A stretch of 64,000 bases of DNA from Trujillonella endophytica (GTDB lineage Bacteria > Actinomycetota > Actinomycetes > Mycobacteriales > Geodermatophilaceae), in the NCBI RefSeq assembly GCF_900110555.1, contig NZ_FOEE01000009.1, forward strand, positions 62,001 to 126,000, written 5' to 3'. The translations under genes and the position numbers were made by a program. Of the stretch, positions 24,799 through 44,106 are shown one piece after another. A model generated the notes under the pieces. The model ran no database searches. It had not been told where the DNA came from and was given only the letters and a program-made list of their open reading frames with translations. Within the stretch, counting starts at the first letter, position 1. Each line of letters starts with the position of its first letter.

Positions 24799-26061
24799 AT
24801 GAACGTCGAGGACATGGTCATGGTCAGCATCGACGACCACGTGATCGAGCCGCCCGACATGTACAAGAACCACCTGCCGGCGAAGTACATGGACCTCGCG
24901 CCGAAGTCGATCGTCGACGAGAACGGCTTCGCGAAGTGGTGGTTCCAGGGCACCGCCCTGGGCTCGGTGGGCCTCAACGCCGTCGTCGGCTGGCCGAACG
25001 AGGAGTGGGGCCTGAACCCCTCGACGTTCGCCGAGATGCGCCCGGGTGCCTACGACATCCACGAGCGCGTCCGCGACATGAACCGCAACGGGATCCTGGC
25101 CTCGATGTGCTTCCCGTCCTACGCCGGCTTCAGCGCCCGGTACTTCCAGCAGGCGGAGGACAAGGACCTGTCGCTGCTCATGCTGAAGGCCTACAACGAC
25201 TGGCACATCGACGAGTGGTGCACGGCCTACCCCGGCCGGATGATCCCGCTCGCGATCATCCCGGTCTGGGACCAGCCGGCCATGGTGGAGGAGCTCCGCC
25301 GGGTCGCGGCCAAGGGCGTCCGGGCGGTCACCATGCCGGAACTTCCGCACGTCCAGGGCCTGCCCAGCTACCACGACCTGGAGTACTGGGGCCCCTTCTT
25401 CCAGGCCGCCTCGGAGCTGCAGGTCGTCATGTGCCTGCACATCGGCCAGGGCTTCGGCGCCATCACGATGGCCCCCGACGCCCCGATCGACAACATGATC
25501 ATCCTGTCCAACCAGGTCTCGTCGCTCGCGGCACAGGACCTGCTCTGGGGTGGGGCGTTCCGCACCTACCCGGAGTTGAAGGTCGCCTTCTCCGAGGGCG
25601 GCATCGGCTGGATCCCGTTCTACCTGGACCGCTGCGACCGGCACTACACCAACCAGCGCTGGCTCGGCCACGACTTCGGCGGGAAGCTGCCCAGCGAGAT
25701 CTTCCGCGAGCACTCGCTGGCCTGCTACGTCACCGACCCGACCGCGCTCAAGGTCCGCCACGACATCGGGATCGACATCATCGCGTGGGAGTGCGACTAC
25801 CCGCACTCGGACGCCATCTGGCCCAACGCCCCGGAGTGGGTGCAGGCCGAGATGGCCGGCGCGGACGTGCCGGACGACGAGATGCACAAGATCCTCTGGC
25901 AGAACACGTGCCGGTTCTTCGGCTGGGACCCGTTCCGGCACATCGCCCAGGAGGACGCCACGGTCGGCGCCCTGCGGGCCCTGTCCCCCGACGTCGACAC
26001 CACCATCCGCTCCAAGCACGAGTGGCGGAAGCTCTACCACCAGCGGACGACCTCCGCCTGA
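24799..26061 (+). CDS. Amidohydrolase family 2 protein (decarboxylase-like metallohydrolase)
   Basis: A 420-residue amidohydrolase-related TIM-barrel enzyme. VSIDDHVIEPPDMY near residues 9-22 carries the first metal ligands, LHIGQGFG near 215 the next histidine, and AWECDYPHSDAIWP near 332 the C-terminal aspartate and histidine. This arrangement is seen in ACMSD-like decarboxylases and in hydrolases of aromatic degradation. It has an AGGAAGACGC site before its ATG and lies 74 bases after the CoA-transferase. A ring-opening hydrolysis or decarboxylation is possible; the substrate is unknown. Confidence 0.87.
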   Translation: MNVEDMVMVSIDDHVIEPPDMYKNHLPAKYMDLAPKSIVDENGFAKWWFQGTALGSVGLNAVVGWPNEEWGLNPSTFAEMRPGAYDIHERVRDMNRNGILASMCFPSYAGFSARYFQQAEDKDLSLLMLKAYNDWHIDEWCTAYPGRMIPLAIIPVWDQPAMVEELRRVAAKGVRAVTMPELPHVQGLPSYHDLEYWGPFFQAASELQVVMCLHIGQGFGAITMAPDAPIDNMIILSNQVSSLAAQDLLWGGAFRTYPELKVAFSEGGIGWIPFYLDRCDRHYTNQRWLGHDFGGKLPSEIFREHSLACYVTDPTALKVRHDIGIDIIAWECDYPHSDAIWPNAPEWVQAEMAGADVPDDEMHKILWQNTCRFFGWDPFRHIAQEDATVGALRALSPDVDTTIRSKHEWRKLYHQRTTSA

Positions 26062-26389: not shown

Positions 26390-27625
26390 ATGCGATCACG
26401 TGGTCTGGCGGCGATCGGCGCGACCTGCGCCGTCCTGCTCCTGGCGAGTGCCTGCGGCACCGACGACGAGGACTCGGAGACCACCGGCGGTGGGGCGGAC
26501 ACCGCCTCGGGAACCGTGAAGGTCGGCCTCCTCACCCCGCTCAGCGGGCCGGCCGCCGCCTCCTACGGCGAGGCGACCCGCCTGGGCGTCGAGGCCCGGC
26601 TGGCCGCCTACGAGGCCGAGGACGGCGAGTGCGCCGGGCTGGACTTCGAGATCGTCGAGGCCGACGACGCCTCCAGCCCCCAGGGCGCACTGGCCGGGGC
26701 CCAGAAGCTGGTGCAGCAGGACGAGGTCTACGCGATCCTCGAGAACAGCCCGTTCTTCTACGGCGCGACGCCGTTCATCACCTCGCAGGCGCAGACCGTG
26801 CCGGTGATCGGCGGCGCGTACGACGGCGCCCAGGAGTGGTCGGACACCGACGACAACATGTTCCAGTCGTTCCCGGTGATCGACACCGCTGCGACCTACT
26901 CCTACCAGGGCGAGTACCTGGAGAGCCTGGGCGGCACCGTCTTCGCCGGCGTCTCCAACAGCTCCCCGAGCTCGCAGGCGTCGCTCGACTCCGTCGCGCG
27001 GTCCGCCGAGGCGGTCGGGCTGGAGCGCGGGTACATCAACGACACCGTGCCCTTCGGCAGCACCGACGTCGGCGCGATCGTGCTCGGCATCATGGAGTCC
27101 GGCGCCGACGTCGTCTACACGCCGACCAACTCCGACATCGCCTTCGCCATCCTCGACGGCCTGCGCCAGGCCGACTACCCGCTCAAGGGCTTCGTCGTCC
27201 CCACCGGCTACAGCAACGCGCTGCTGCAGTCCGAGCCCGCGGTGGCGGCCGCCCAGGGGGTGTCGTTCCAGGTGTTCTTCTCGCCGGTCGAGCTGGGCAC
27301 CCCCGAGGGCCTGCGACTGCAGGAGGCCTTCCAGGGCGAGGGGCTGGAGTCCGGCATCCCGGACTTCACCCAGACCATCGGCTACATGAACACCGACCTC
27401 TTCCTCTACGCCCTCGAGCAGTCGGGCTGCGAAGCGACCCAGACCGAGGTGATCGAGACCCTGCAGGGCGCGACCTGGGACGCGGGCGGGCTGTACCCCG
27501 AGCCGATCGACTTCTCGGTCGCCCTGCAGGACAGCCTCTGCGTCTACTACGTGAAGCTGGAGGGTGAGGAGTTCGTCCCGGACGAGAACGCCTCCCCGCT
27601 GTGCGGCGAGCGCATCGAGGACTGA
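26390..27625 (+). CDS. ABC transporter substrate-binding lipoprotein, branched-chain-amino-acid type (paralogue 1)
   Basis: A 411-residue extracellular lipoprotein that should capture a small carboxylate or amino acid for an ABC importer. A signal sequence with lipobox LASAC at residues 18-22 is followed by an acidic linker, then the periplasmic-binding-protein type 1 fold starting VKVGLLTPLSGPAAASYGEA. VEADDASSPQGALAGAQKL near residue 80 is typical of the LivJ group. It shares the same frame of conserved motifs with the proteins at 28787 and 30326 but is the most divergent of the three. No permease or ATPase gene is near. The ligand is unknown. Confidence 0.93.
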   Translation: MRSRGLAAIGATCAVLLLASACGTDDEDSETTGGGADTASGTVKVGLLTPLSGPAAASYGEATRLGVEARLAAYEAEDGECAGLDFEIVEADDASSPQGALAGAQKLVQQDEVYAILENSPFFYGATPFITSQAQTVPVIGGAYDGAQEWSDTDDNMFQSFPVIDTAATYSYQGEYLESLGGTVFAGVSNSSPSSQASLDSVARSAEAVGLERGYINDTVPFGSTDVGAIVLGIMESGADVVYTPTNSDIAFAILDGLRQADYPLKGFVVPTGYSNALLQSEPAVAAAQGVSFQVFFSPVELGTPEGLRLQEAFQGEGLESGIPDFTQTIGYMNTDLFLYALEQSGCEATQTEVIETLQGATWDAGGLYPEPIDFSVALQDSLCVYYVKLEGEEFVPDENASPLCGERIED

Positions 27626-27638
27626 GCCACCTGCCCCA

Positions 27639-27678
27639 CACAGGGCCCGGGACGCCACGCGGCGTCCCGGGCCCTGTG
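27639..27678. terminator. Bidirectional hairpin terminator
   Basis: A perfect 18-bp stem (27639-27656 with 27661-27678) with a four-base loop lies between the convergent ends of substrate-binding protein gene 1 and the phosphatase gene. Confidence 0.85.
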
Positions 27679-27683
27679 CGTGC

Positions 27684-28454
27684 TCAGGGCCCGACGAGCC
27701 GGTCGCGCAGGTCGGCGAGCTCGTCCTCGAGCAGCCCGGCGGAGAGCAGGTAGCCCCGGGCGGAGCCGTGGGTCCGGCGGAGACCGTCGAGGAACACCTC
27801 CATCACCCCGCCGTCGACCGTGTTCCGCTGCGGCTCGCGCAGGTGCATCTGGTCGGCGTAGAAGTCCAGCGACCGGAGCTGGGCGAGCATCCGGTCCAGG
27901 GACTCGTTGGTGCGCACGTAGTCGGCGACGACGACGTCGTCCGGGACCCCGACGGTCGACAGCAGCAGCGCGGCCAGGATCCCCGTCCGGTCCTTGCCCG
28001 CGGCGCAGTGGAAGAGCGCCGGCATCCCGTCGTCGAGGAGGAGGCGGACGGCCCGCGCGATCCGCTCGGCGCTGAGCTCCAGCATGCCGAGGTAGAAGGG
28101 GCCCAGGATCCCGGACAGCTGCGCCGGCGCCTGCTCCCCCACCGGCGTGTTCGGATCGGCCGGTCGCGGGACGCGGAAGGGGATGTTGACGACGGCGATC
28201 CCGCTCCCGGCGAGCAGGCCGCTGCCGCCGGCGGCCGACTCCTTCGCGAAGCGGAGGTCGAGCACCGTCCGGAGACCCACCCGGGACCGGAGCTCGTCGA
28301 GATCGCTCGGGGTCATGAGCTGGGGGGTCGCGCTGCGGAACAGCCGCCCCGTTCGCACCCGTCCGCCGCCGGCCACGGGCAGGCCGCCGAGGTCGCGGAA
28401 GTTGAGCACGCCTTCGGGGACCCACTCGGTCCCACCCACTGCACCACTGGTCAT
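27684..28454 (-). CDS. Protein-tyrosine/dual-specificity phosphatase, MptpB-like
   Basis: A 256-residue phosphatase. NFRDLGGLPVAGGGRVRTGRLFRS near residue 17 (core NFRDLGG and RLFRSA) and HCAAGKDRTG near residue 147 form the signature; the latter is the HCxxGKDRT P-loop of the lipid/tyrosine phosphatase subgroup that includes Mycobacterium MptpB. The ATG at 28454 is chosen because two AGAAC palindromes lie 13-47 bases upstream and would overlap the coding region if the longer in-frame start were used. It may act on a phospho-protein or phosphoinositide, but a catabolic phosphatase is equally possible given its promoter. Confidence 0.88.
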   Translation of the reverse strand: MTSGAVGGTEWVPEGVLNFRDLGGLPVAGGGRVRTGRLFRSATPQLMTPSDLDELRSRVGLRTVLDLRFAKESAAGGSGLLAGSGIAVVNIPFRVPRPADPNTPVGEQAPAQLSGILGPFYLGMLELSAERIARAVRLLLDDGMPALFHCAAGKDRTGILAALLLSTVGVPDDVVVADYVRTNESLDRMLAQLRSLDFYADQMHLREPQRNTVDGGVMEVFLDGLRRTHGSARGYLLSAGLLEDELADLRDRLVGP

Positions 28455-28466
28455 GCACCGACCGTC

Positions 28467-28501
28467 CAGCACGAGGTTCTGTTGGTCAAGAACCATGTTC
28501 T
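28467..28501. promoter_or_regulatory. Tandem operator palindromes 4 and 5 upstream of the phosphatase gene
   Basis: Two copies lie 21 bp apart, centre to centre. Site 28467-28481 (CAGAAC-CTC-GTGCTG on the minus strand) differs by one base from the site at 2725. Site 28489-28501 is a perfect AGAAC-N3-GTTCT. Two turns of spacing suits cooperative dimer binding. The remainder of 28455-28786 is the divergent promoter gap. Confidence 0.6.
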
Positions 28502-28588
28502 CCGCGGCGCGGGGCGCCACCTCTCACGCGACAGCTTTTGGACCGATCGGTCGTTACAAGAACGTGACCCAGCAGCACCGCCTTCGCC

Positions 28589-28652
28589 TTGACCCCCAAA
28601 TGTGACCGCTGTTACGTTTCATATAGCAGGACAGTCGTTGTAGATAACGAAC
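28589..28652 (+). promoter_or_regulatory. Promoter of substrate-binding protein gene 2, shared layout with mhpA
   Basis: TTGACC (28589-28594), an 18-base spacer and TACGTT (28613-28618) form the promoter. Bases 28605-28619 are identical to the mhpA promoter, and 28644-28654 (ATAACGAACGA) are also identical to it. The box GTTG-N8-GAAC is at 28637-28652. A leader of about 160 bases follows. Confidence 0.65.
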
Positions 28653-28786
28653 GACCAGAGCCATCAAGAGGCCTCCGCGCCCTGACGCGCACGCCGCCGC
28701 TCAGCCGCCCCGCCGGCGGGCTCCTCCGGCGTGACACAGCCTCCGCGCACCACCTCCACCGCTCGACGACGAGGAGAGACCCGAAC

Positions 28787-30028
28787 ATGAGGACGATGAC
28801 CCGAACGGCGATCGGCGCGAGCTGCGCCCTGCTGCTGACGCTGGCCGCCTGCGGCAGCGACGACGAGGAGGGCGGCGGCGGCAGCAGCTCCGGAGGCGGG
28901 GGCGGCGGCTCGCAGAGCATCAAGATCGGCGTCGTCACGCCCCTCAGCGGGCCGAGCGCGGCCACCTACGGCGACGAGGCCCGCACCGGCGTCGAGGCCC
29001 GCCTGGCCGCCTACGTCGAGGACGGCGGCGAGTGCGCCGACGTGGAGTTCGAGGTCGTCGAGGCCGACGACGCGTCGAACCCGGCCGGTGCCCTCACCGC
29101 CGCGCAGCGCCTGGTGCAGCAGGAGGAGGTCTTCGCCATCCTGTCCACCAGCTCCTCCTTCTTCGGGGCCACCCAGTACGTGACCACCCAGGCGGCGGAC
29201 GTCCCGGTGCTCGGTGACGCCTCCGACCAGAGCCCGGAGTGGCGCCGTCCCGACAACAACATGTTCCCGGCCCAGCCGGTGCCGGACCCGGAGGCCGTCT
29301 ACCCCCTCGTCGGCGAGTACATGGCGGCGGTCGGCGGGACGACGATGGGTGGCGCCTCCTTCCCGGTGCCCGCATCGCAGGGGGCCCTCGAGGCCGCCTC
29401 CCAGTCGGCCGAGGCCGCCGGGCTCGAGACGGGCTACCTCAACACCAACTTCCCGATCGGCAGCACCGACGTCGGCCCCGTGGTGCTCGGCATCGAGGAC
29501 TCCGGCACCGACGTGCTCTACCTGCCGATCACCTTCGACTCGGCGCTCGCCGTCGTCGAGGGCCTGCGACAGAACGACGTGGAGCTCGCCGGCGTCCTGG
29601 CCGCCACCGGCTACGGCAACGGACTCCTCGACTCCCCGCCCGCGGTCGAGGCCGCCCAGGGCGTCAGCTTCTCCGTCGGCTACTCCCCGGTGGAGATGAA
29701 CACCGAGGCGACCGAGCGCCTCGCCCAGGCGGTGCGCGACCAGGGCGTCGAGTCCGGCATCCCCGCGTACGCCATGACCTCGGGCTGGTTCAACGCCGAC
29801 CTCCTGCTGCACGGCCTCGAGGTGGCCGGCTGCGACGCGACGCAGGCCGAGTTCATCGAGGCGCTCAACACCGACGCCACCTACGACGGCAGCGGGCTCT
29901 TCGCGAACCCGATCGACTACAGCCTCGAGGACCAGCCGGAGCTCTGCCTCTGGTTCGTCACGCTGGAGGGCGAGGAGTTCGTCCCGGTCGAGAACGCCGC
30001 ACCGGCGTGCGGTGAGCGGCTGAACTGA
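28787..30028 (+). CDS. ABC transporter substrate-binding lipoprotein, branched-chain-amino-acid type (paralogue 2)
   Basis: A 413-residue lipoprotein with a signal sequence ending at lipobox LAAC (residue ~21), a long glycine/serine linker, then the type 1 binding fold beginning IKIGVVTPLSGPSAATYGDE. It is highly similar to paralogue 3 along the whole length, including VEADDASNPAGALTAAQRLV and NTNFPIGSTDVGPVVLGI. The ATG at 28787 has a GAGGAGAG site; a longer in-frame reading begins inside the promoter. Its promoter closely matches that of mhpA, so the ligand may be an aromatic acid or its breakdown product. No transporter permease is adjacent. Confidence 0.93.
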   Translation: MRTMTRTAIGASCALLLTLAACGSDDEEGGGGSSSGGGGGGSQSIKIGVVTPLSGPSAATYGDEARTGVEARLAAYVEDGGECADVEFEVVEADDASNPAGALTAAQRLVQQEEVFAILSTSSSFFGATQYVTTQAADVPVLGDASDQSPEWRRPDNNMFPAQPVPDPEAVYPLVGEYMAAVGGTTMGGASFPVPASQGALEAASQSAEAAGLETGYLNTNFPIGSTDVGPVVLGIEDSGTDVLYLPITFDSALAVVEGLRQNDVELAGVLAATGYGNGLLDSPPAVEAAQGVSFSVGYSPVEMNTEATERLAQAVRDQGVESGIPAYAMTSGWFNADLLLHGLEVAGCDATQAEFIEALNTDATYDGSGLFANPIDYSLEDQPELCLWFVTLEGEEFVPVENAAPACGERLN

Positions 30029-30051
30029 TCGCAGGCCCACCCGCACGCAGG

Positions 30052-30098
30052 CCGGCCCCCCTCGCCACTCCCTCCCGGGACGTGGCGAGGGGGGCCGG
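30052..30098 (+). terminator. Hairpin terminator after substrate-binding protein gene 2
   Basis: A perfect 17-bp stem (30052-30068 with 30082-30098) and a 13-base loop begin 24 bases after the stop codon. Confidence 0.85.
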
Positions 30099-30170
30099 TC
30101 CGCGTTCGCGCCCGCCGGGGTGGGATCTCTCCTCTGCGCGCCGCCCGGGACGACACGTTCTCGCAACGCA

Positions 30171-30213
30171 CCTTGTGACAAGGCTTACATCCGTTTAAAC
30201 CAGGTGTTCTAAT
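30171..30213 (+). promoter_or_regulatory. Promoter region of substrate-binding protein gene 3
   Basis: The perfect palindrome CCTTGTGACAAGG (30171-30183) is followed by TTACAT (30185-30190), a 17-base spacer and TCTAAT (30208-30213). The spacer includes GTTTAAAC. This layout differs from that of the two related genes. The rest of 30099-30325 shows nothing I can assign. Confidence 0.45.
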
Positions 30214-30325
30214 CGCGCGGTCAACCAGGTGGTGAGGCCGGCGACACCGCGTACCGACCTCCTCCCCCGCCACCTCGACGCACCTCCCCCCGCAACTCGG
30301 CTCGACGACGAGGAGACAACCGGAC

Positions 30326-31564
30326 ATGAGGACGAGGACCCGGACGGCGGTCGGCGCCACCTGCGCGCTGCTGCTCGCACTGACCGCGTGCGGCAGCGAC
30401 GACGAGGAGGGCGGCGGCGGCGGGACCACCGCCGGCGGCGAGGGCGGCGGCGGCACCGTCAAGATCGGCGTCGTCACGCCCCTGTCCGGCCCTGCCGCCG
30501 CGACCTACGGCGATGCCGCCGGCAACGGGGTCGAGGCACGGCTCGCCGCCTACGAGGAAGAGGGCGGCGAGTGCTCGGACATCGACTTCGAGGTGGTGGA
30601 GGCCGACGACGCCTCCAACCCCGCCGGGTCGCTGGCCGCCGCCCAGCGACTGGTCCAGCAGGAGGAGGTCTACGCCATCCTGTCCAGCAGCCAGGCCTTC
30701 TACGGCGCCACCGCCTTCATGCTCACCCAGCCCGGCGTCCCGGTCCTGGGCGACGGCACCGACCCCAGCCCGGAGTGGCGGGCGACGGGGAACAACCTGT
30801 TCCTGTCGCAGCCCGTCCCCGACATCACCACCGCCTACCCGATGGTCGGTGACTTCCTGGCCGCCGTCGGCGGCACGACCATGGCCGGCGTGGCCTTCTC
30901 CGTGCCGGCCTCCCAGCAGGCTCTCCAGGCCGCCGCCGACTCCGCCGAGGCCGCCGGACTCGACATCGGTTACCTCAACGACAACGTCCAGTTCGGCAGC
31001 ACCGACGTCGGCCCCATCGTCCTCGGCATCCGCGACACCGGCGCCGACGCCCTCTACCTGCCCATCACCTTCGACACCGCCCTGGCCGTGGTCGAGGGCC
31101 TGCGCCAGAACGACATCGAGGTGGCCGGCGTCCTCGCCGCCACCGGCTACGGCGCCGACCTGCTGGAGAACCCGGTCGCCGTCGAGGCCGCCCAGGGCGT
31201 CAGCTTCTCCATCGCCTACGCCCCGGTCTCCCTCGGCACCGAGGCCACCGAGCGACTCAGGAACGCGGTCATCGACCAGGGCGTCGAGTCCGGCATCCCG
31301 GGCTATGCCATGTCGTCCGGGTGGTTCAACGCCGACCTGTTCCTGCACGGCCTGGAACTGGCCGGGTGCGACGCCACCCAGCAGGAGTTCATCGACGAGC
31401 TCAACCAGGACGACACCTGGGACGCCAGTGGCCTCTACGGGGAGCCGATCGACTTCACCGTCGAGGACCAGCCCCAGCTGTGCCAGTACTTCGTCACGCT
31501 CGAGGGCGAGGAGTTCGTGGCCGTCGAGGGCGCCTCGCCGGCGTGCGGAGCGCCGCTCGACTGA
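30326..31564 (+). CDS. ABC transporter substrate-binding lipoprotein, branched-chain-amino-acid type (paralogue 3)
   Basis: A 412-residue lipoprotein very like paralogue 2. The signal sequence ends at LTAC near residue 21, followed by a glycine-rich linker and the type 1 binding fold starting VKIGVVTPLSGPAAATYGDA. The motif VEADDASNPAGSLAAAQRLV is nearly identical to that of paralogue 2, and the two share the same end motif for residues EGEEFV. Gene duplication in place is the simplest explanation. A good GACGAGGAGACAACC site precedes the ATG. Its promoter differs, so it may respond to another signal. Confidence 0.93.
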   Translation: MRTRTRTAVGATCALLLALTACGSDDEEGGGGGTTAGGEGGGGTVKIGVVTPLSGPAAATYGDAAGNGVEARLAAYEEEGGECSDIDFEVVEADDASNPAGSLAAAQRLVQQEEVYAILSSSQAFYGATAFMLTQPGVPVLGDGTDPSPEWRATGNNLFLSQPVPDITTAYPMVGDFLAAVGGTTMAGVAFSVPASQQALQAAADSAEAAGLDIGYLNDNVQFGSTDVGPIVLGIRDTGADALYLPITFDTALAVVEGLRQNDIEVAGVLAATGYGADLLENPVAVEAAQGVSFSIAYAPVSLGTEATERLRNAVIDQGVESGIPGYAMSSGWFNADLFLHGLELAGCDATQQEFIDELNQDDTWDASGLYGEPIDFTVEDQPQLCQYFVTLEGEEFVAVEGASPACGAPLD

Positions 31565-37794: not shown

Positions 37795-40161
37795 TCAGTT
37801 GGCGAAGCGCTCCCGGTAGTCCTCCCCCGGCTCGTACGCGACGCCCGCGGCGACCAGGTCGTCGATCTCCCGCTGGGAGAGCCCGATGCCGTCGAGCACC
37901 TCCCGGGTGTGCTGGCCGACCAGCGGCGCCGGCCCGGCGATGCGCCCCGGCGTCTCGGAGAAGTCGATCAGGTGCCCGAACTGGCGGGTGCGGCCGTACA
38001 CCGGGTGCTCGTACTCGGCGACCAGCCCGAGGCGCACGTTGTCGGCGTCGTGCAGCGGCGCGACGCCGCCCTGGGTGTCCAGCGGGAGCTCGCACGGCAC
38101 CCCGGCGGAGTCCAGCGCCCGCTTCCAGTTCCACGCGGTGCGGCGGGCGAACGCCGCCTCCAGCTCGGCCTCCACCTCCGCGCGGTCGTCACCGCGGCGG
38201 CCGGTCAGCTCCTCGGCGCCCGCGGCCGAGCACAGCGCCGCCCACTCCGCGTCCGAGGTCGCGCACACCTGCACGTACTGCTCGTCCTGGCAGCGGTAGA
38301 GCCGGTAGCCCGGGCCCAGCCCGTGCAGCCCGGCGTCCAGGTGCGGCCGCTCCAGCGGCACCCCGTCGACCAGCAGCGCGTCGGAGGCGAACACCGCGGC
38401 GCCGTCCAGCAGCGAGGTCCACAGCTCCTGGCCCTCGCCGGTGCGGTCGCGGTGGGCCAGCGCGAGCAGGACGCCGACCACAGACAGCACCGCGTTGGCC
38501 TGGTCGGTGAAGCCGAACCGGACGTACAGCGGCCGCTGCCCCAGGTGCACGGCGCCCTGCTCGAACTCGATGCCGCCGCTGGCCTGGTAGAGCGGGTCGA
38601 GGCCACCGGAGTGCGACAGCGGCCCCTCGAGGCCGTAGGCGTAGGTGTTGCAGTAGATGACGGCCGGGTTGACGCCCCGGCAGTCGGCGTAGCCGATGCC
38701 GATGCGGTCGGCGACGCCCTTGGTCATGTTGTGGTGGACGACGTCCGCGGTCCGCACCACCTCGAGCGCGATCTCCCGCCCGCGCGGATTCTTCAGGTCC
38801 AGCGCCAGGGACCGCTTCCCCCGCTGGCAGCCGTTGAACGGCGCCTGCGCCATTCGCATGTTGTCGCCGCCGACCGGCTCGATCTTGACGACGTCCATGC
38901 CGAGGTCGCCGAGCAGCATCGGGCCGAACGGCCCGGCCAGGTACTGCCCGAAGTCGACGAGCCGCAGCCCGCCCAGCGCCGTCGGCTGCGCCGGTCCGCC
39001 GGAGGGCACCGGGAGCGGGCGCCGCGGGACCTCGCGCAGCTCCGCGCGGACCGCGGCGCCGTGCTCGTCCAGCCGCGGGCGCGGCGAGACGATCGCGCCC
39101 GGCGTGCCCAGCAGGTGGATCGGGACGCCCATCTGCGTGGTCCCGCCCAGCTCGGGGTCGGCCACCGCGGCGACCATGTCGTTGGCGGCCAGCTGCGGAT
39201 GCGGCTGCGCCAGCGACTGCTCCGCCGTGACCACCGCCTCGCACGCGTGGTTGTGCTCGCGCAGCGCCTGCACCAGGTCGGCGACCTTCCAGGAGGCGAA
39301 GGCGGCGGCGCGCTCGGCGTGCCACCGCTCGCGCTGCTCGGCCGGGGCGCTCGCCTGCAGGTACGGGTGCGGCTGGTCGAGGCCCAGGATGTCCTCGATC
39401 GACCGGGTCGGCGTCAGGCCCGACAGCACCGAGAGGTGGATCCAGCCGTCGGCGGTCTGCCAGATCATCCCCTGGTGGATGCCCGGCGGGTACGTCTTCG
39501 CCATCACCTCGTGGAACGCCGGCGCCCAGTGCTCGACGTCCTGCCAGATCTGCGTCGTGTACAGGAACAGGCCCTGCAGCAGCGAGGTGCGCACGTGCTG
39601 GCCGCGCCCGGTGGTCGCCCGCTGGTGCAGCGCCGCCAGGATGCCCATCGGCGCGAGGAAGGCGGCGCCCAGCGTCGGCGTCGGCGCGTGGTTGTAGACG
39701 GGGCCGAGCCGCCAGCCCGGCTGCTCGGACTGCGCCCCGCCGGCGGCCTGCACGAGCGCGTCCCAGCCGGGACGCTGCTCGTTGCGGTGCCCCACCGGCC
39801 AGGCGGAGACCGAGCAGTAGACCAGCGCGGGGTGCCGCGCGTGCACGGCGTCGTAGCCGAGGCCGAGCCGGTCCATGACCCCCGGCCGGAAGCCCTCCAC
39901 CAGCACGTCCGCCCCGGCGAGCAGATCCTCCATGGTCGCCGCGTCGGCCGGGTCGGTGAGGTCCAGGGCGATGGACCGGCGGCTGCGGTGCCACACCGCG
40001 CTGCCGTGGTAGCCGCGGGTGGGATCGCCGCCGGGCGGCTCCACCTTGACGACGTCGGCCCCGTGCTCGGCGAGCATCGTCACGCCGACCGACGCGCCCG
40101 GCCCCCACGTGAGGTCGAGGATCCGGATGCCGTCCAGGGCGCTGCCCGAGGGAGTCGTCAC
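37795..40161 (-). CDS. Fused double family III CoA-transferase
   Basis: A 788-residue protein with two CaiB/BaiF domains in tandem, at about residues 1-385 and 400-788; each normally occupies ~400 residues. The first reads ILDLTWGPGASVGVTMLAEHG and the second LVDFGQYLAGPFGPMLLGDLG near its start. Where the second domain has the expected acidic residue in RFGFTDQANA, the first reads YNHAPTPTLGAA at the equivalent place and has no aspartate. The N-terminal half is thus probably inactive or structural. The GTG at 40161 is used. It is divergent from an enoyl-CoA hydratase gene across an 86-bp gap, so CoA activation of the same acid is likely. Confidence 0.88.
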   Translation of the reverse strand: MTTPSGSALDGIRILDLTWGPGASVGVTMLAEHGADVVKVEPPGGDPTRGYHGSAVWHRSRRSIALDLTDPADAATMEDLLAGADVLVEGFRPGVMDRLGLGYDAVHARHPALVYCSVSAWPVGHRNEQRPGWDALVQAAGGAQSEQPGWRLGPVYNHAPTPTLGAAFLAPMGILAALHQRATTGRGQHVRTSLLQGLFLYTTQIWQDVEHWAPAFHEVMAKTYPPGIHQGMIWQTADGWIHLSVLSGLTPTRSIEDILGLDQPHPYLQASAPAEQRERWHAERAAAFASWKVADLVQALREHNHACEAVVTAEQSLAQPHPQLAANDMVAAVADPELGGTTQMGVPIHLLGTPGAIVSPRPRLDEHGAAVRAELREVPRRPLPVPSGGPAQPTALGGLRLVDFGQYLAGPFGPMLLGDLGMDVVKIEPVGGDNMRMAQAPFNGCQRGKRSLALDLKNPRGREIALEVVRTADVVHHNMTKGVADRIGIGYADCRGVNPAVIYCNTYAYGLEGPLSHSGGLDPLYQASGGIEFEQGAVHLGQRPLYVRFGFTDQANAVLSVVGVLLALAHRDRTGEGQELWTSLLDGAAVFASDALLVDGVPLERPHLDAGLHGLGPGYRLYRCQDEQYVQVCATSDAEWAALCSAAGAEELTGRRGDDRAEVEAELEAAFARRTAWNWKRALDSAGVPCELPLDTQGGVAPLHDADNVRLGLVAEYEHPVYGRTRQFGHLIDFSETPGRIAGPAPLVGQHTREVLDGIGLSQREIDDLVAAGVAYEPGEDYRERFAN

Positions 40162-40247
40162 GACCCGCAGTGTGTCCCCGCTCACGGGACGGCACAATGC
40201 TCGCGACCTGGTTACCGTCAGCCTTTCGACAAGACCGGAGGACGACG

Positions 40248-41093
40248 ATGTCCGACGCTCCACCCGCGGATCCCGCCGCCTGGGCCGAGGCAGGCCTGGC
40301 CTTCCGGGTGGAGGAGGGGGTGGCCTGGCTCGTCCTCGACCGCCCGCAGGTCCGCAACGCGATCCACCACCCCCTGCGCAACGCGCTCCTCGCCGCGATC
40401 GAGGAGGTCCGCGCCGACCCCGAGATCCGGGCGGCGGTGGTCACCGGCTCGGGCAGCGCCTTCTGCGCGGGTGCCGACCTGATGTCGCCGCCGCACATCG
40501 AGATCCCGCCCGAGCGGCAGCGCGGCGCCCTGGCCAACGTCGCGCGGGAGGACGGCCGGCGCTTCGGCTGGTGGCGCCTGGCCCGGGCGATCTGGGAGAA
40601 CGAGAAGCCGTTCGTCGCCGCCGTCAACGGCCCCGCCTACGGGGGCGGGTGCAACCTCGCGCTCGCCTGCGACCTGGTGGTGGCGGCCGAGTCGGCGCGG
40701 TTCAGCGAGGTCTTCGTGACCCGCGGCCTGCCCCTGGAGGGCGCCGCGGCCTACCTGCTCACCCGGTCGCTCAGTCCCGTCCGGGCCAAGGAGATGGCCC
40801 TGTTCGGCGACCCGGTCGACGGCCGGACGGCGGCCGAGTGGGGGCTGGCCAACCGCTGCGTCCCCGACGCCGAGCTGCTGGACCTCGCCGGGAGCTGGGC
40901 CCGCCGCCTGGCCGCCGGGCCCAGCATCGGCATCGGCCACGTGAAGGGCCAGATCAACGACGCCCTCGAGCAGACGATGGAGCAGGTCGCCAAGGCCGAG
41001 GTCACGCTCCTGGGCCTGGGCATCGGCGGCGACGCGCAGGAGGCCATGCAGGCCTTCGTCGAGCGTCGCGCGCCGCGGTTCACCGGACGATGA
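40248..41093 (+). CDS. Enoyl-CoA hydratase/isomerase (crotonase fold), copy 1
   Basis: A 281-residue crotonase. The oxyanion-hole segments are SGSAFCAGADL near residue 67 and AVNGPAYGGGCNLALACDLV near residue 125 (cores AFCAGADL and GPAYGGG). Glutamates lie in SARFSEVFVTRGLPLEGAA. Compared with canonical hydratases the second catalytic glutamate region reads LPLEG, so activity is possible. The ATG has GGAGGACGACG upstream. ATGA overlap couples it to the second hydratase. Confidence 0.9.
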   Translation: MSDAPPADPAAWAEAGLAFRVEEGVAWLVLDRPQVRNAIHHPLRNALLAAIEEVRADPEIRAAVVTGSGSAFCAGADLMSPPHIEIPPERQRGALANVAREDGRRFGWWRLARAIWENEKPFVAAVNGPAYGGGCNLALACDLVVAAESARFSEVFVTRGLPLEGAAAYLLTRSLSPVRAKEMALFGDPVDGRTAAEWGLANRCVPDAELLDLAGSWARRLAAGPSIGIGHVKGQINDALEQTMEQVAKAEVTLLGLGIGGDAQEAMQAFVERRAPRFTGR

Positions 41094-41890
41094 GCGGCCC
41101 GGTGCACCCCGAGAAGGTGCTGGTCGAGCGGCGCGGGCACGTCCTGGTCGTCACGATCAACCGCCCGGAGGTGCGCAACGCCGTCGACGGCGAGGTGCAC
41201 ATGACCATCGGCCGGCTGCTGGACGACGTCGAGGCCGACCCCGACGTCCGCGTCGTCGTCGTCACCGGCGCCGGGGACAAGGCCTTCTCCGCCGGCGCCG
41301 ACCTCAAGGCCAACGCGCGCGGGGAGACCGTCCTGCCGCCGGGCTACGAGCACTGGGGCTTCGCGGGCTGGGTCCGGCACCCGATCAGCAAGCCGACCAT
41401 CGCGGCGGTCAACGGGGCCGCGATGGGCGGCGGCGCGGAGCTGCTGCTCTCCTGCGACCTCGCCGTCGCCGCCGAGCACGCCGTCATCGGCCTGCCCGAG
41501 GTGACGATCGGCATGATCGCCGCGGACGGCGGCCCCTTCCGCGCGCTGGCCCAGCTCCCGCAGCGGATCGGCATGGAGCTCGTGCTCACCGGCGACCCGA
41601 TCTCGGCCGCCCGCGCGCTCGAGCTGCACCTGGTCAACCGCGTCGTCCCCGGGGACGAGGTGCTGGGCGCCGCGCTGCAGCTGGCCGACCGGATCGCCCG
41701 CAACGCCCCGCTCGCGGTCCAGGCCAGCAAGCGCATCGCCCTCGGCCTGCGGAACGGCGAGCGCCCGGCCGAGCGGCTGCACTGGGAGCTGACCCGCGAG
41801 CACGCCCACGCCACCGCCGGGTCGGCCGACGCGAAGGAGGGCGTGCGCGCGTTCCTGGAGAAGCGCCCGCCGGTCTGGACCGGCCGGTGA
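41090..41890 (+). CDS. Enoyl-CoA hydratase/isomerase (crotonase fold), copy 2
   Basis: A 266-residue crotonase with the motifs DKAFSAGADLKA near residue 63 and AVNGAAMGGGAELLLSCDLAVA near residue 105 (cores FSAGADL and GAAMGGG). It has VIGLPEVTIGMIAADGGPF, which supplies the first glutamate. Its ATG overlaps the preceding stop, and its stop overlaps the next start (GTGA), so three genes are translated as a unit. A second member with different loops next to copy 1 suggests two steps in the same acyl-CoA route. Confidence 0.9.
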   Translation: MSGPVHPEKVLVERRGHVLVVTINRPEVRNAVDGEVHMTIGRLLDDVEADPDVRVVVVTGAGDKAFSAGADLKANARGETVLPPGYEHWGFAGWVRHPISKPTIAAVNGAAMGGGAELLLSCDLAVAAEHAVIGLPEVTIGMIAADGGPFRALAQLPQRIGMELVLTGDPISAARALELHLVNRVVPGDEVLGAALQLADRIARNAPLAVQASKRIALGLRNGERPAERLHWELTREHAHATAGSADAKEGVRAFLEKRPPVWTGR

Positions 41891-42948
41891 GCCGCATGCG
41901 GATCGGGATGCCGCTGTCCTACAGCGTGGGCGTCCGCGAGACGGCGGCCGTCATCGGCGAGTACGAGGCCGCCGGCGTGGACGTCGTCTTCGTGGGCGAG
42001 GCCTGGTCGTTCGACGCCGTCAGCCAGCTCGGCTACCTCGCCGCGCGGACGACGACGATGCAGCTGGCCGCCGGCATCCTCAACGTCTACTCCCGCACCC
42101 CCGCGCTGCTGGCCATGACCGCCGCCGGGCTGGACGCGGTCTCCGGCGGCCGGTTCATCCTCGGCCTCGGCGCGTCCGGCCCCCAGGTGATCGAAGGGTT
42201 CCACGGCGTCCCCTACACCGCGCCCCTGGCCCGCACCCGCGAGGTCGTCGAGGTCTGCCGCACGGTGTGGCGGCGGGAGCCGCTGGTGCACGACGGGCCG
42301 CACGTGCAGGTGCCCCTGTCGCGCGAGCGCGGCGGCAGCGGCCTCGGCAAGCCCCTGACGCTGATCAACCGGCCGGTCCGCGACCGCATCCCGCTGATGC
42401 TCGCGGCGTTGGGGCCGAAGAACGTGGCGCTGGCCGCCGAGCTGTTCGAGGCCTGGGAGCCGATCTTCTACTTCCCCGAGCGGGCCGCGGACGCGTTCGG
42501 CGCCCCCCTCGCCGAGGGCGCCGGCCGCCGGGACCCGGCGCTCGGCCCGCTCGACGTCGTCGCCGACACCCACGTGCTGGTCACCGAGGACGCCGACGAG
42601 GAGGAGCGCGCGCTGCGAAGGGTCCGCCAGCACCTCGCGCTCTACGTCGGCGGCATGGGCGCCCGGGGCCGGAACTTCTACAACGACCTGGCCGTGCGCT
42701 ACGGCTTCCCCGACGCGGCACGCGAGGTCCAGGACCACTACCTCGGCGGCCGGCCCCTGCAGGCCGCCGCCGCCCTGCCCGAGGAGCTGGTCCGCGGGGT
42801 GTCCCTCATCGGGCCGCGCGGGTTCGTCGCCGAGCGGGTCGCCGCCTTCGCCGAGGGCGGGGCGACGACGCTCAACGCCGCCCCGCTCGGCGAGGACCAC
42901 GCGACCCGGCTGGCCTCCGTGGCCGCCCTGCGGGAGCTCGCCCCCTGA
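41887..42948 (+). CDS. Luciferase-like flavin-dependent oxidoreductase (LLM class)
   Basis: A 353-residue monooxygenase or F420/FMN-dependent reductase of the luciferase-like family. IGMPLSYSVGVRETA opens the barrel, LAAGILNVYSRTPALLAMTAAGLDAVSGGRFILGLGASGP (core SGGRFILGLGASG) near residues 88-100 is the family signature, and HVLVTEDADEEERALRRV near residue 230 is typical of actinobacterial F420-dependent members. Cofactor choice (F420 or FMN) cannot be told from sequence alone. It starts inside the hydratase stop. Confidence 0.9.
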   Translation: MSRMRIGMPLSYSVGVRETAAVIGEYEAAGVDVVFVGEAWSFDAVSQLGYLAARTTTMQLAAGILNVYSRTPALLAMTAAGLDAVSGGRFILGLGASGPQVIEGFHGVPYTAPLARTREVVEVCRTVWRREPLVHDGPHVQVPLSRERGGSGLGKPLTLINRPVRDRIPLMLAALGPKNVALAAELFEAWEPIFYFPERAADAFGAPLAEGAGRRDPALGPLDVVADTHVLVTEDADEEERALRRVRQHLALYVGGMGARGRNFYNDLAVRYGFPDAAREVQDHYLGGRPLQAAAALPEELVRGVSLIGPRGFVAERVAAFAEGGATTLNAAPLGEDHATRLASVAALRELAP

Positions 42949-43023: not shown

Positions 43024-44106
43024 GTGACGGTCACGGTCGTGCACTGGGGCACCGGCGCCACCGGCGCGCTCGCGCTGCGCGGGATCCTTTCCCACCCGGA
43101 GCTCGAGCTCGTCGGGCTGTACGTGCACTCGGCGGAGAAGGCCGGCCTGGACGCGGCCGAGCTCTGCGGGCTGAGCGAGCCCACCGGAGTGGTCGCCACG
43201 AACGACGCGGCCGCGCTGCGCGCGCTGGGCGCCGACTGCCTCTCCTACTTCGGCCCGGGCCGGGCGCCGACCGCGATCGGTGACGTGCTGCCGTTCCTCG
43301 AGGCCGGCATCGACGTCGTCACCACGAGCTTCGGCGGCCTGACCCACCCGCCCGCCGCCGAGTCGGTCCTCCGCGAGCCGGCCGAGGCGGCGGCGCTGGC
43401 CGGCGGCGCGTCGCTGTTCTCCACCGGGATCGAGCCCGGGTACGCCAGCGACCTGCTGCCGCTGGCGCTGCTGTCGGCCTGCGACGACGTCCACGGGGTC
43501 CGGATCCAGGAGGTCGCCGACTACTCGCACTACCCCGGGGCCGACGCCCTGCGGATCGGCTTCGGCTTCGGCGAACCCGCCGACTACCCGGCCGCCCTCG
43601 CCGACCCCGCACGCCTGATCGGCGGGTGGCGCGGCGTGGTCGAGCTCGTCGGCGACGCCCTCGGCGTTCGCTTCGACTCGGTGGAGGCGACCTACGAGCG
43701 CCGGTCCCTGGACCGCGACGTCGACACCGCCATCGGGGTCGTCCGGGCGGGCACCACCGCCGCGGTCCGGTTCGAGGTGCAGGGCATGGTCGACGGCGTG
43801 CCGTTCGTCGTGCTCGAGCACGTCAACCGGATGGCCGCCGACGCCGCCCCCGACTGGCCGCACGCCCGCCTCGGCGACCGGCTGGTCTACCGCACCGAGG
43901 TGACCGGCCGACCCGGCTTCGCCTGCGAGCTCGCCTTCGACGAGCCGCAGTCGGAATTCGGCCGGATCGCCACCGGGATGCGCGCGGTCAACGCGATCCC
44001 CGCGGTGGTCGCCGCGCGGCCGGGACTGCTGTCGGCGACCGACCTGCCGGTCACGGTGAGCCGCAACAGCCGGCCCGGGGGAAGGCCCGTCCCGGTCCGG
44101 AGCTGA
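43024..44106 (+). CDS. NAD(P)-binding dehydrogenase, dihydrodipicolinate-reductase-like
   Basis: A 360-residue protein whose N-terminal Rossmann domain has VVHWGTGATGALALRGI at residues 5-21. The C-terminal part (VEATYERRSLDRDVDTAIGVVRAGTTAAVRFEVQG) resembles the actinobacterial family of diacylglycerol/NAD-dependent dehydrogenases of unknown substrate. The GTG start follows GGGAGG. It is 75 bases after the luciferase-like gene, with its own possible promoter sequence, so it is likely in the same functional set but may be separately transcribed. Confidence 0.8.
   Translation: MTVTVVHWGTGATGALALRGILSHPELELVGLYVHSAEKAGLDAAELCGLSEPTGVVATNDAAALRALGADCLSYFGPGRAPTAIGDVLPFLEAGIDVVTTSFGGLTHPPAAESVLREPAEAAALAGGASLFSTGIEPGYASDLLPLALLSACDDVHGVRIQEVADYSHYPGADALRIGFGFGEPADYPAALADPARLIGGWRGVVELVGDALGVRFDSVEATYERRSLDRDVDTAIGVVRAGTTAAVRFEVQGMVDGVPFVVLEHVNRMAADAAPDWPHARLGDRLVYRTEVTGRPGFACELAFDEPQSEFGRIATGMRAVNAIPAVVAARPGLLSATDLPVTVSRNSRPGGRPVPVRS

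Follow-up and report, generated by a model that had tools for sequence, protein, structure and literature searches.

Evidence for a single working site in a tandem, single-chain family III CoA-transferase from Trujillonella endophytica

The tandem family III CoA-transferase encoded in the window, which is the whole 64,000-nucleotide stretch of Trujillonella endophytica DNA that was analysed, is very probably a single-chain pseudo-heterodimer with one working site, at D553 in its second half, and with the first half acting as the partner. The open reading frame is on the minus strand at 37795-40161 and encodes 788 residues. It begins with a GTG start codon at 40161, its coding part is 37798-40161, and the stop codon occupies 37795-37797. 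Pfam CoA_transf_3 (PF02515) matches this one frame in two stretches, with 551 bits in total against a cut-off of 23.3 and the best stretch at residues 396-752, which bears out the sequence-only reading that two family III copies are fused here. CoA_transf_3 is the only Pfam domain found in the 788-residue protein. Since no NCBIfam model scores above its cut-off, the reaction of the protein is assigned by no model. The first (N-terminal) half, residues 1-388 (38998-40161, minus strand), delimited by Pfam and alignments, lacks the catalytic Asp. The second (C-terminal) half, residues 389-788 (37798-38997, minus strand), delimited by Pfam and an alignment with human SUGCT, is catalytically intact by sequence. 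The two halves are 28% identical over 372 columns. The linker, approximately residues 378-394 (38980-39030, minus strand), lies where the split relatives have a stop codon and a new start codon, and its block 381-390 has a mean pLDDT of 65 in the fused model. The codon-position GC pattern of the gene resembles that of the neighbouring genes.

The fused frame is also present, at 89-90% identity, in four Blastococcus-type sequences (genomes G001 and G002 and loci L050 and L051), the Blastococcus loci L050 and L051 (89-90% identical) being the nearest named relatives. With the second half as query at an E-value of 1e-90, its own genome is the sole match in a sample of 396 genomes of the phylum. 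With the whole protein as query at 1e-60, five of 59 genomes, its own included, have matches, and the full-length matches of 89-100% identity among those 59 are confined to its own genome, G001 and G002.

The predicted acyl-accepting residue, D553 (codon 38503-38505, minus strand), is located by alignment with SUGCT and with the family: T552 and D553 of the second-half segment FTDQANA fall on the TD of human SUGCT. In the first half, where the corresponding segment is NHAPTPTLG, the catalytic-Asp column is occupied by T163 (codon 39673-39675, minus strand) in a 41-row alignment that comprises both halves of 14 tandem proteins (28 rows; nine proteins from the window's genome and five from G001, G002 and G054) and 13 single-domain enzymes. 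The column holds Asp in all second halves and in all 13 single-domain enzymes of this alignment. The earlier observation of an Asp in FTDQANA of the second copy and none in NHAPTPTLG of the first is thus upheld by the alignment as D553 versus T163. In the best 80 of 535 confirmed loci from a scan of the GTDB genome collection, Asp fills the column in 80/80 second halves and in 2/80 first halves. These counts include two partial second halves, one whose open frame ends early (L073) and one at a contig end (L059), and leave three own-genome matches (L028, C31:62672 and C26:160865) outside the table. The first halves of the same 80 loci have Ser in 59 cases, Asn in 12, Thr in four, Ala in two, Asp in two and Gly in one; after thinning of these 80 to 28 loci below 60% identity, the residues are Ser in 22, Thr in three, Ala in two and Asn in one. 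In G001, G002, L050 and L051 the first-half residue is Thr three times and Ser once. An acid elsewhere near the first-half site would speak against a dead half; no Asp or Glu lies within eight columns on either side of the catalytic column in the window's first half, and the only acids within the same distance in the first halves of the best 80 of 535 loci are the two Asp in the column itself. A substitute acid beside the first-half site is rejected for the window protein on this ground.

The Asn at position 478 (codon 38728-38730, minus strand), which we take to correspond to the CoA-contacting Asn of formyl-CoA transferase, is kept in second halves and lost in first halves: among the best 80 of 535 loci, Asn is found in this column in 80/80 second halves and 2/80 first halves. 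Since this Asn is present in 10 of the 13 single-domain enzymes and absent from three that bear the Asp, its loss points to inactivity less strongly than does the loss of the Asp.

The dead half is nonetheless under purifying selection nearly as strong as that on the live half, with dN/dS between the window protein and four orthologs of 0.19-0.22 for the first half and 0.15-0.19 for the second. The second half is the more identical of the two in 42/45 subfamily pairs, 9/10 Blastococcus-type pairs and 290/378 diverse pairs, and a mild relaxation of the first half, which changes somewhat faster, is possible. This conservation fits a half that is an obligate partner with a share in the single site, and is also compatible with a second binding role. 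The first half may instead have kept or gained binding of its own, for a second CoA or acid or for the docking of a pathway partner, which is a good deal less probable. The purifying selection speaks for such binding, as do the non-random residues at the former Asp position (Ser in 59 of the best 80 of 535 loci, otherwise mostly Asn or Thr) and two basic columns of the same 80 first halves, the K449 column being Lys or Arg and the R447 column Arg in 80/80. Against it, the Asn of the N478 column is lost in 78 of these 80 first halves, Pfam detects no additional domain, and an obligate interlocked partner would be conserved anyway. The earlier proposal of a dead half available for binding a partner or a second acid finds no support, the half having lost both Asn and Asp and being conserved like a structural partner. 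Most likely the dead half is a structural partner that completes the single site.

SUGCT and the bacterial formyl-CoA transferases, which match the second half over nearly its full length, including the catalytic Asp of SUGCT, assemble as homodimers; unlike the window protein, they are not fused and have one kind of chain. Also comparable to the window protein is succinyl-CoA:(R)-benzylsuccinate CoA-transferase, BbsEF (PDB 9fn0, 9fol and 9fun), which is built from two different family III chains, although these are two proteins and the window protein is one chain. In all eight split relatives of the window protein, one of the two subunits only has the Asp. The title of one BbsEF PDB entry names a D178-CoA adduct, and a literature search found no paper on the BbsEF structure. 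The pairing of the halves with the BbsEF chains is not firm, since the searches disagree: the whole-protein search pairs the first half with chain A and the second half with chain B, and a profile of 11 first halves also prefers chain A to chain B, whereas the first half alone scores 61 bits with chain B and 48 bits with chain A.

Like the window protein, PtmU4 and DddD are single chains with two family III domains in tandem. According to the published description, PtmU4 homologs, of which 2401 are bacterial and mostly from Actinobacteria and Proteobacteria, have a two-domain layout with a conserved catalytic Asp in the C-terminal domain; PtmU4 and DddD are characterized two-domain members whose reactions are other than plain transfer, and PtmU4 requires its C-terminal Asp430 (PMC6006322). 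DddD is described as having two CaiB domains (PMC7174347). Judged from its sequence, the window protein fits this published layout with a C-terminal Asp, and the layout is already known. What was proposed from the sequence, a pseudo-heterodimer with a single working site, remains the probable reading, in view of the one intact Asp and of the Asp/non-Asp gene pairs in the relatives; the arrangement is not an unusual one. The window protein also differs from PtmU4 and DddD in its genomic setting, beside enoyl-CoA hydratases, and in that its own subfamily occurs as two separate genes as well.

These two-domain enzymes raise the alternative that the family III scaffold carries out some other CoA-ester chemistry here, such as a DddD-like lyase, a PtmU4-like sulfur transfer or a racemase-like reaction, with D553 as base or nucleophile. 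This seems rather unlikely. That PtmU4 and DddD do more than plain transfer, with Asp430 needed in PtmU4, is in its favour, and the alpha-methylacyl-CoA racemases share the fold. However, the best profile and fold matches of the second half are all transferases, namely SUGCT, formyl-CoA transferase and the BbsEF chains.

The AlphaFold2 model of the whole chain, from 41 sequences, has a pLDDT of 91.3 and a pTM of 0.94. A Foldseek search with this model ranks a chain from BbsEF first, practically tied with SUGCT, and its identity to BbsEF is about 23-28%. In the VIA alignments, formyl-CoA transferase and SUGCT superpose on approximately residues 391-782 with Z about 27 and rmsd 2.1-2.5; since the coverage of the fused model by the VIA rows is almost confined to the second half, the lack of first-half rows carries no meaning. 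Modelled alone, the first half has a pLDDT of 67.3 and finds family matches in Foldseek at a TM-score of about 0.55, with rmsd mostly 8-9. Since this model was made from 10 sequences, against 41 for the fused one, its pLDDT is not a clean test of dependence, and the poor lone fold is a weak hint, confounded by alignment depth, that the first half may depend on its partner. In mesaconyl-CoA transferase, the interlocked chains are described as threaded through each other with the active sites at the dimer interface (PMC9813914), and by analogy we infer that the halves of the window protein interlock like two subunits.

In the mechanism that we favour for the single-site pseudo-heterodimer, the two halves would wrap around each other like the subunits of an ordinary family III enzyme. 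D553 would attack the acyl-CoA to give an aspartyl anhydride and then an aspartyl-CoA, which, following the mechanism of the family, would pass its CoA to a carboxylic acid. The first half, without its Asp and Asn, would act as the obligate partner, completing the single site at the interface.

The genome from which the window comes (G000, 4.9 Mb) has undergone a strong expansion of this family, with 33 CoA_transf_3 matches, nine of them tandem frames. In these nine frames, the second half always has the Asp (9/9), and the corresponding first-half residues are T, D, Y, Q, F, E, T, A and T. The Asp and the Glu belong to the paralogs C28b and C28a, so that a non-acidic first-half site is no absolute rule. 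C28b (130894-133227 of contig C28; related loci L036, L037, L038, L101 and L104) is a Blastococcus paralog (also in L036/L040) that is tandem like the window protein and 37% identical to it overall. C28b and its orthologs in G001, G002 and B. endophyticus (L104) have PWVDLG, with a GAC codon for the Asp, whereas four near relatives have PWVS, with an AGC or AGT codon for the Ser. At the position of the co-conserved Asn, C28b and its orthologs still have Ser. C28a (100766-102964 of the same contig; L044) has Glu in the first-half catalytic-Asp column. The first half of C28b or C28a may thus represent a regained or retained second site. If the C28b half were active again, the picture would be of a subfamily that alternates between two genes and a single chain and, in the same genus, of single-chain family III enzymes that can lose and regain a second site, the two sites perhaps differing in the acid that they prefer, a scenario that we regard as speculative and not likely. 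Activity of both halves of the window protein itself, with the first half using another nucleophile or the alignment being shifted, is highly improbable, even though C28b and C28a are among the tandem frames of the same genome: its first half has lost the Asn as well, has no Asp or Glu within eight columns of the site, and belongs with 80 first halves (best 80 of 535 loci) in which the near-site acids are two Asp at the site only.

The subfamily of the window protein is found both as one chain and as two genes. The halves are two adjacent genes in eight of the best 80 of 535 loci, all of them within this subfamily. Among the same 80, the 11 loci closest to the window comprise three fused ones (L050, L051 and L052) and eight split ones, in which the two genes are in different frames, the first gene having Ser and the second Asp in 8/8. 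Start and stop codons overlap at the split junction in five of the eight: in L053, L054 and L059 the first base of the start codon immediately precedes the stop codon, and in L060 and L061 the two codons share one base. In L117, L076 and L057 the start follows the stop by 1, 2 and 10 bases, respectively. Even though the nine closest non-Blastococcus loci (among the best 80 of 535) are eight two-gene and one fused, a spurious joining of two genes by a frame or assembly error has practically negligible probability, since five concordant Blastococcus-type assemblies, the window included, have both halves in one frame.

In a tree of 24 rows of joined halves, the 14 rows of the subfamily group as a single clade (100/100), within which the five fused Blastococcus-type rows form a further clade (100/100), flanked and surrounded by split rows. 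Three changes are needed to explain the fused/split label on this tree and two to three across the bootstrap trees, and the starred branches force two. Since the ten outside rows are all fused, a split within the subfamily may have come first and been followed by renewed fusion. The linker of L052 consists of the first-gene tail and a long linker, and the Blastococcus-type form is without that tail; on sequence grounds this difference fits separate fusions but is no proof of them. The tree suggests that the window gene arose by fusion of two adjacent heterodimer genes, whose two-gene state is still seen in the relatives, the direction of the change being a reading of the tree. In a quick tree, the first and second halves of the wider group to which the window protein belongs separate into two 24-row groups (SH-aLRT 94 and 96), and the C20a/C20b/C20c/C28a proteins and C34 lie apart from that group. 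The hypothesis that all first halves, or all second halves, go back to a single origin is not rejected by the AU test (p 0.27 and 0.17), which covered 20 of 29 tandem proteins and 12 of 13 single-domain enzymes. The literature search found no report of a switch between split and fused forms within one subfamily. Since this subfamily exists in both states, it offers a natural test of the role of the Asp-less half and of how an obligate dimer becomes one polypeptide.

The likely role of the enzyme is CoA activation of some catabolic carboxylic acid, most likely for the neighbouring enoyl-CoA hydratases. Divergent from the gene, on the plus strand, is an enoyl-CoA hydratase/isomerase gene (40245-41093, start codon chosen by eye), which is overlapped by a second one (41090-41890, by Pfam) and followed by a gene for an LLM-class F420-dependent oxidoreductase of the Rv3520c subfamily (41887-42948, plus strand, by Pfam and NCBIfam). 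The four Blastococcus-type loci that were compared (L047, L048, L050 and L051) share this hydratase-hydratase-LLM order, which was not found around the eight split relatives. After the LLM gene, the window has a diaminopentanoate dehydrogenase-like gene (43024-44106), which has no homolog in the four Blastococcus-type loci. Within 6 kb of the best 80 of 535 loci, the neighbours include Amidohydro_2 (40 loci), thiolase (32), acyl-CoA dehydrogenase (26), ligase (13) and enoyl-CoA hydratase (9), with LLM, EAL, DUF427, TetR and substrate-binding proteins at one to three each; the 28 loci left after thinning of these 80 have Amidohydro_2 in 13 and thiolase in 14. Since there is no random-locus background and several queries come from the same loci, these counts only hint at CoA-ester catabolism. 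One Rhodococcus and one Sphingopyxis plasmid relative lie amid annotated acyl-CoA dehydrogenases, thioesterases, amidohydrolases and CoA ligases/AMP-binding proteins. The annotated relatives examined are all named simply CoA transferase, a plain label that hides the probable inactivity of one half.

Amidohydro_2 proteins are encoded next to family III CoA-transferases of tandem, split or single form at 24799-26058 of the window and at L040:5721-6833, L045:7898-9142, L045:15916-17154, L054:4701-5981, L060:10-1158 and L061:2687-3898, and are joined by a Thiolase_C_1 protein in L040, L045 and L060. The window also encodes, in a stretch of about 5 kb (26390-31561), three substrate-binding proteins of the Peripla_BP_6 type; the genes of the first and second are separated by a tyrosine phosphatase-like gene.
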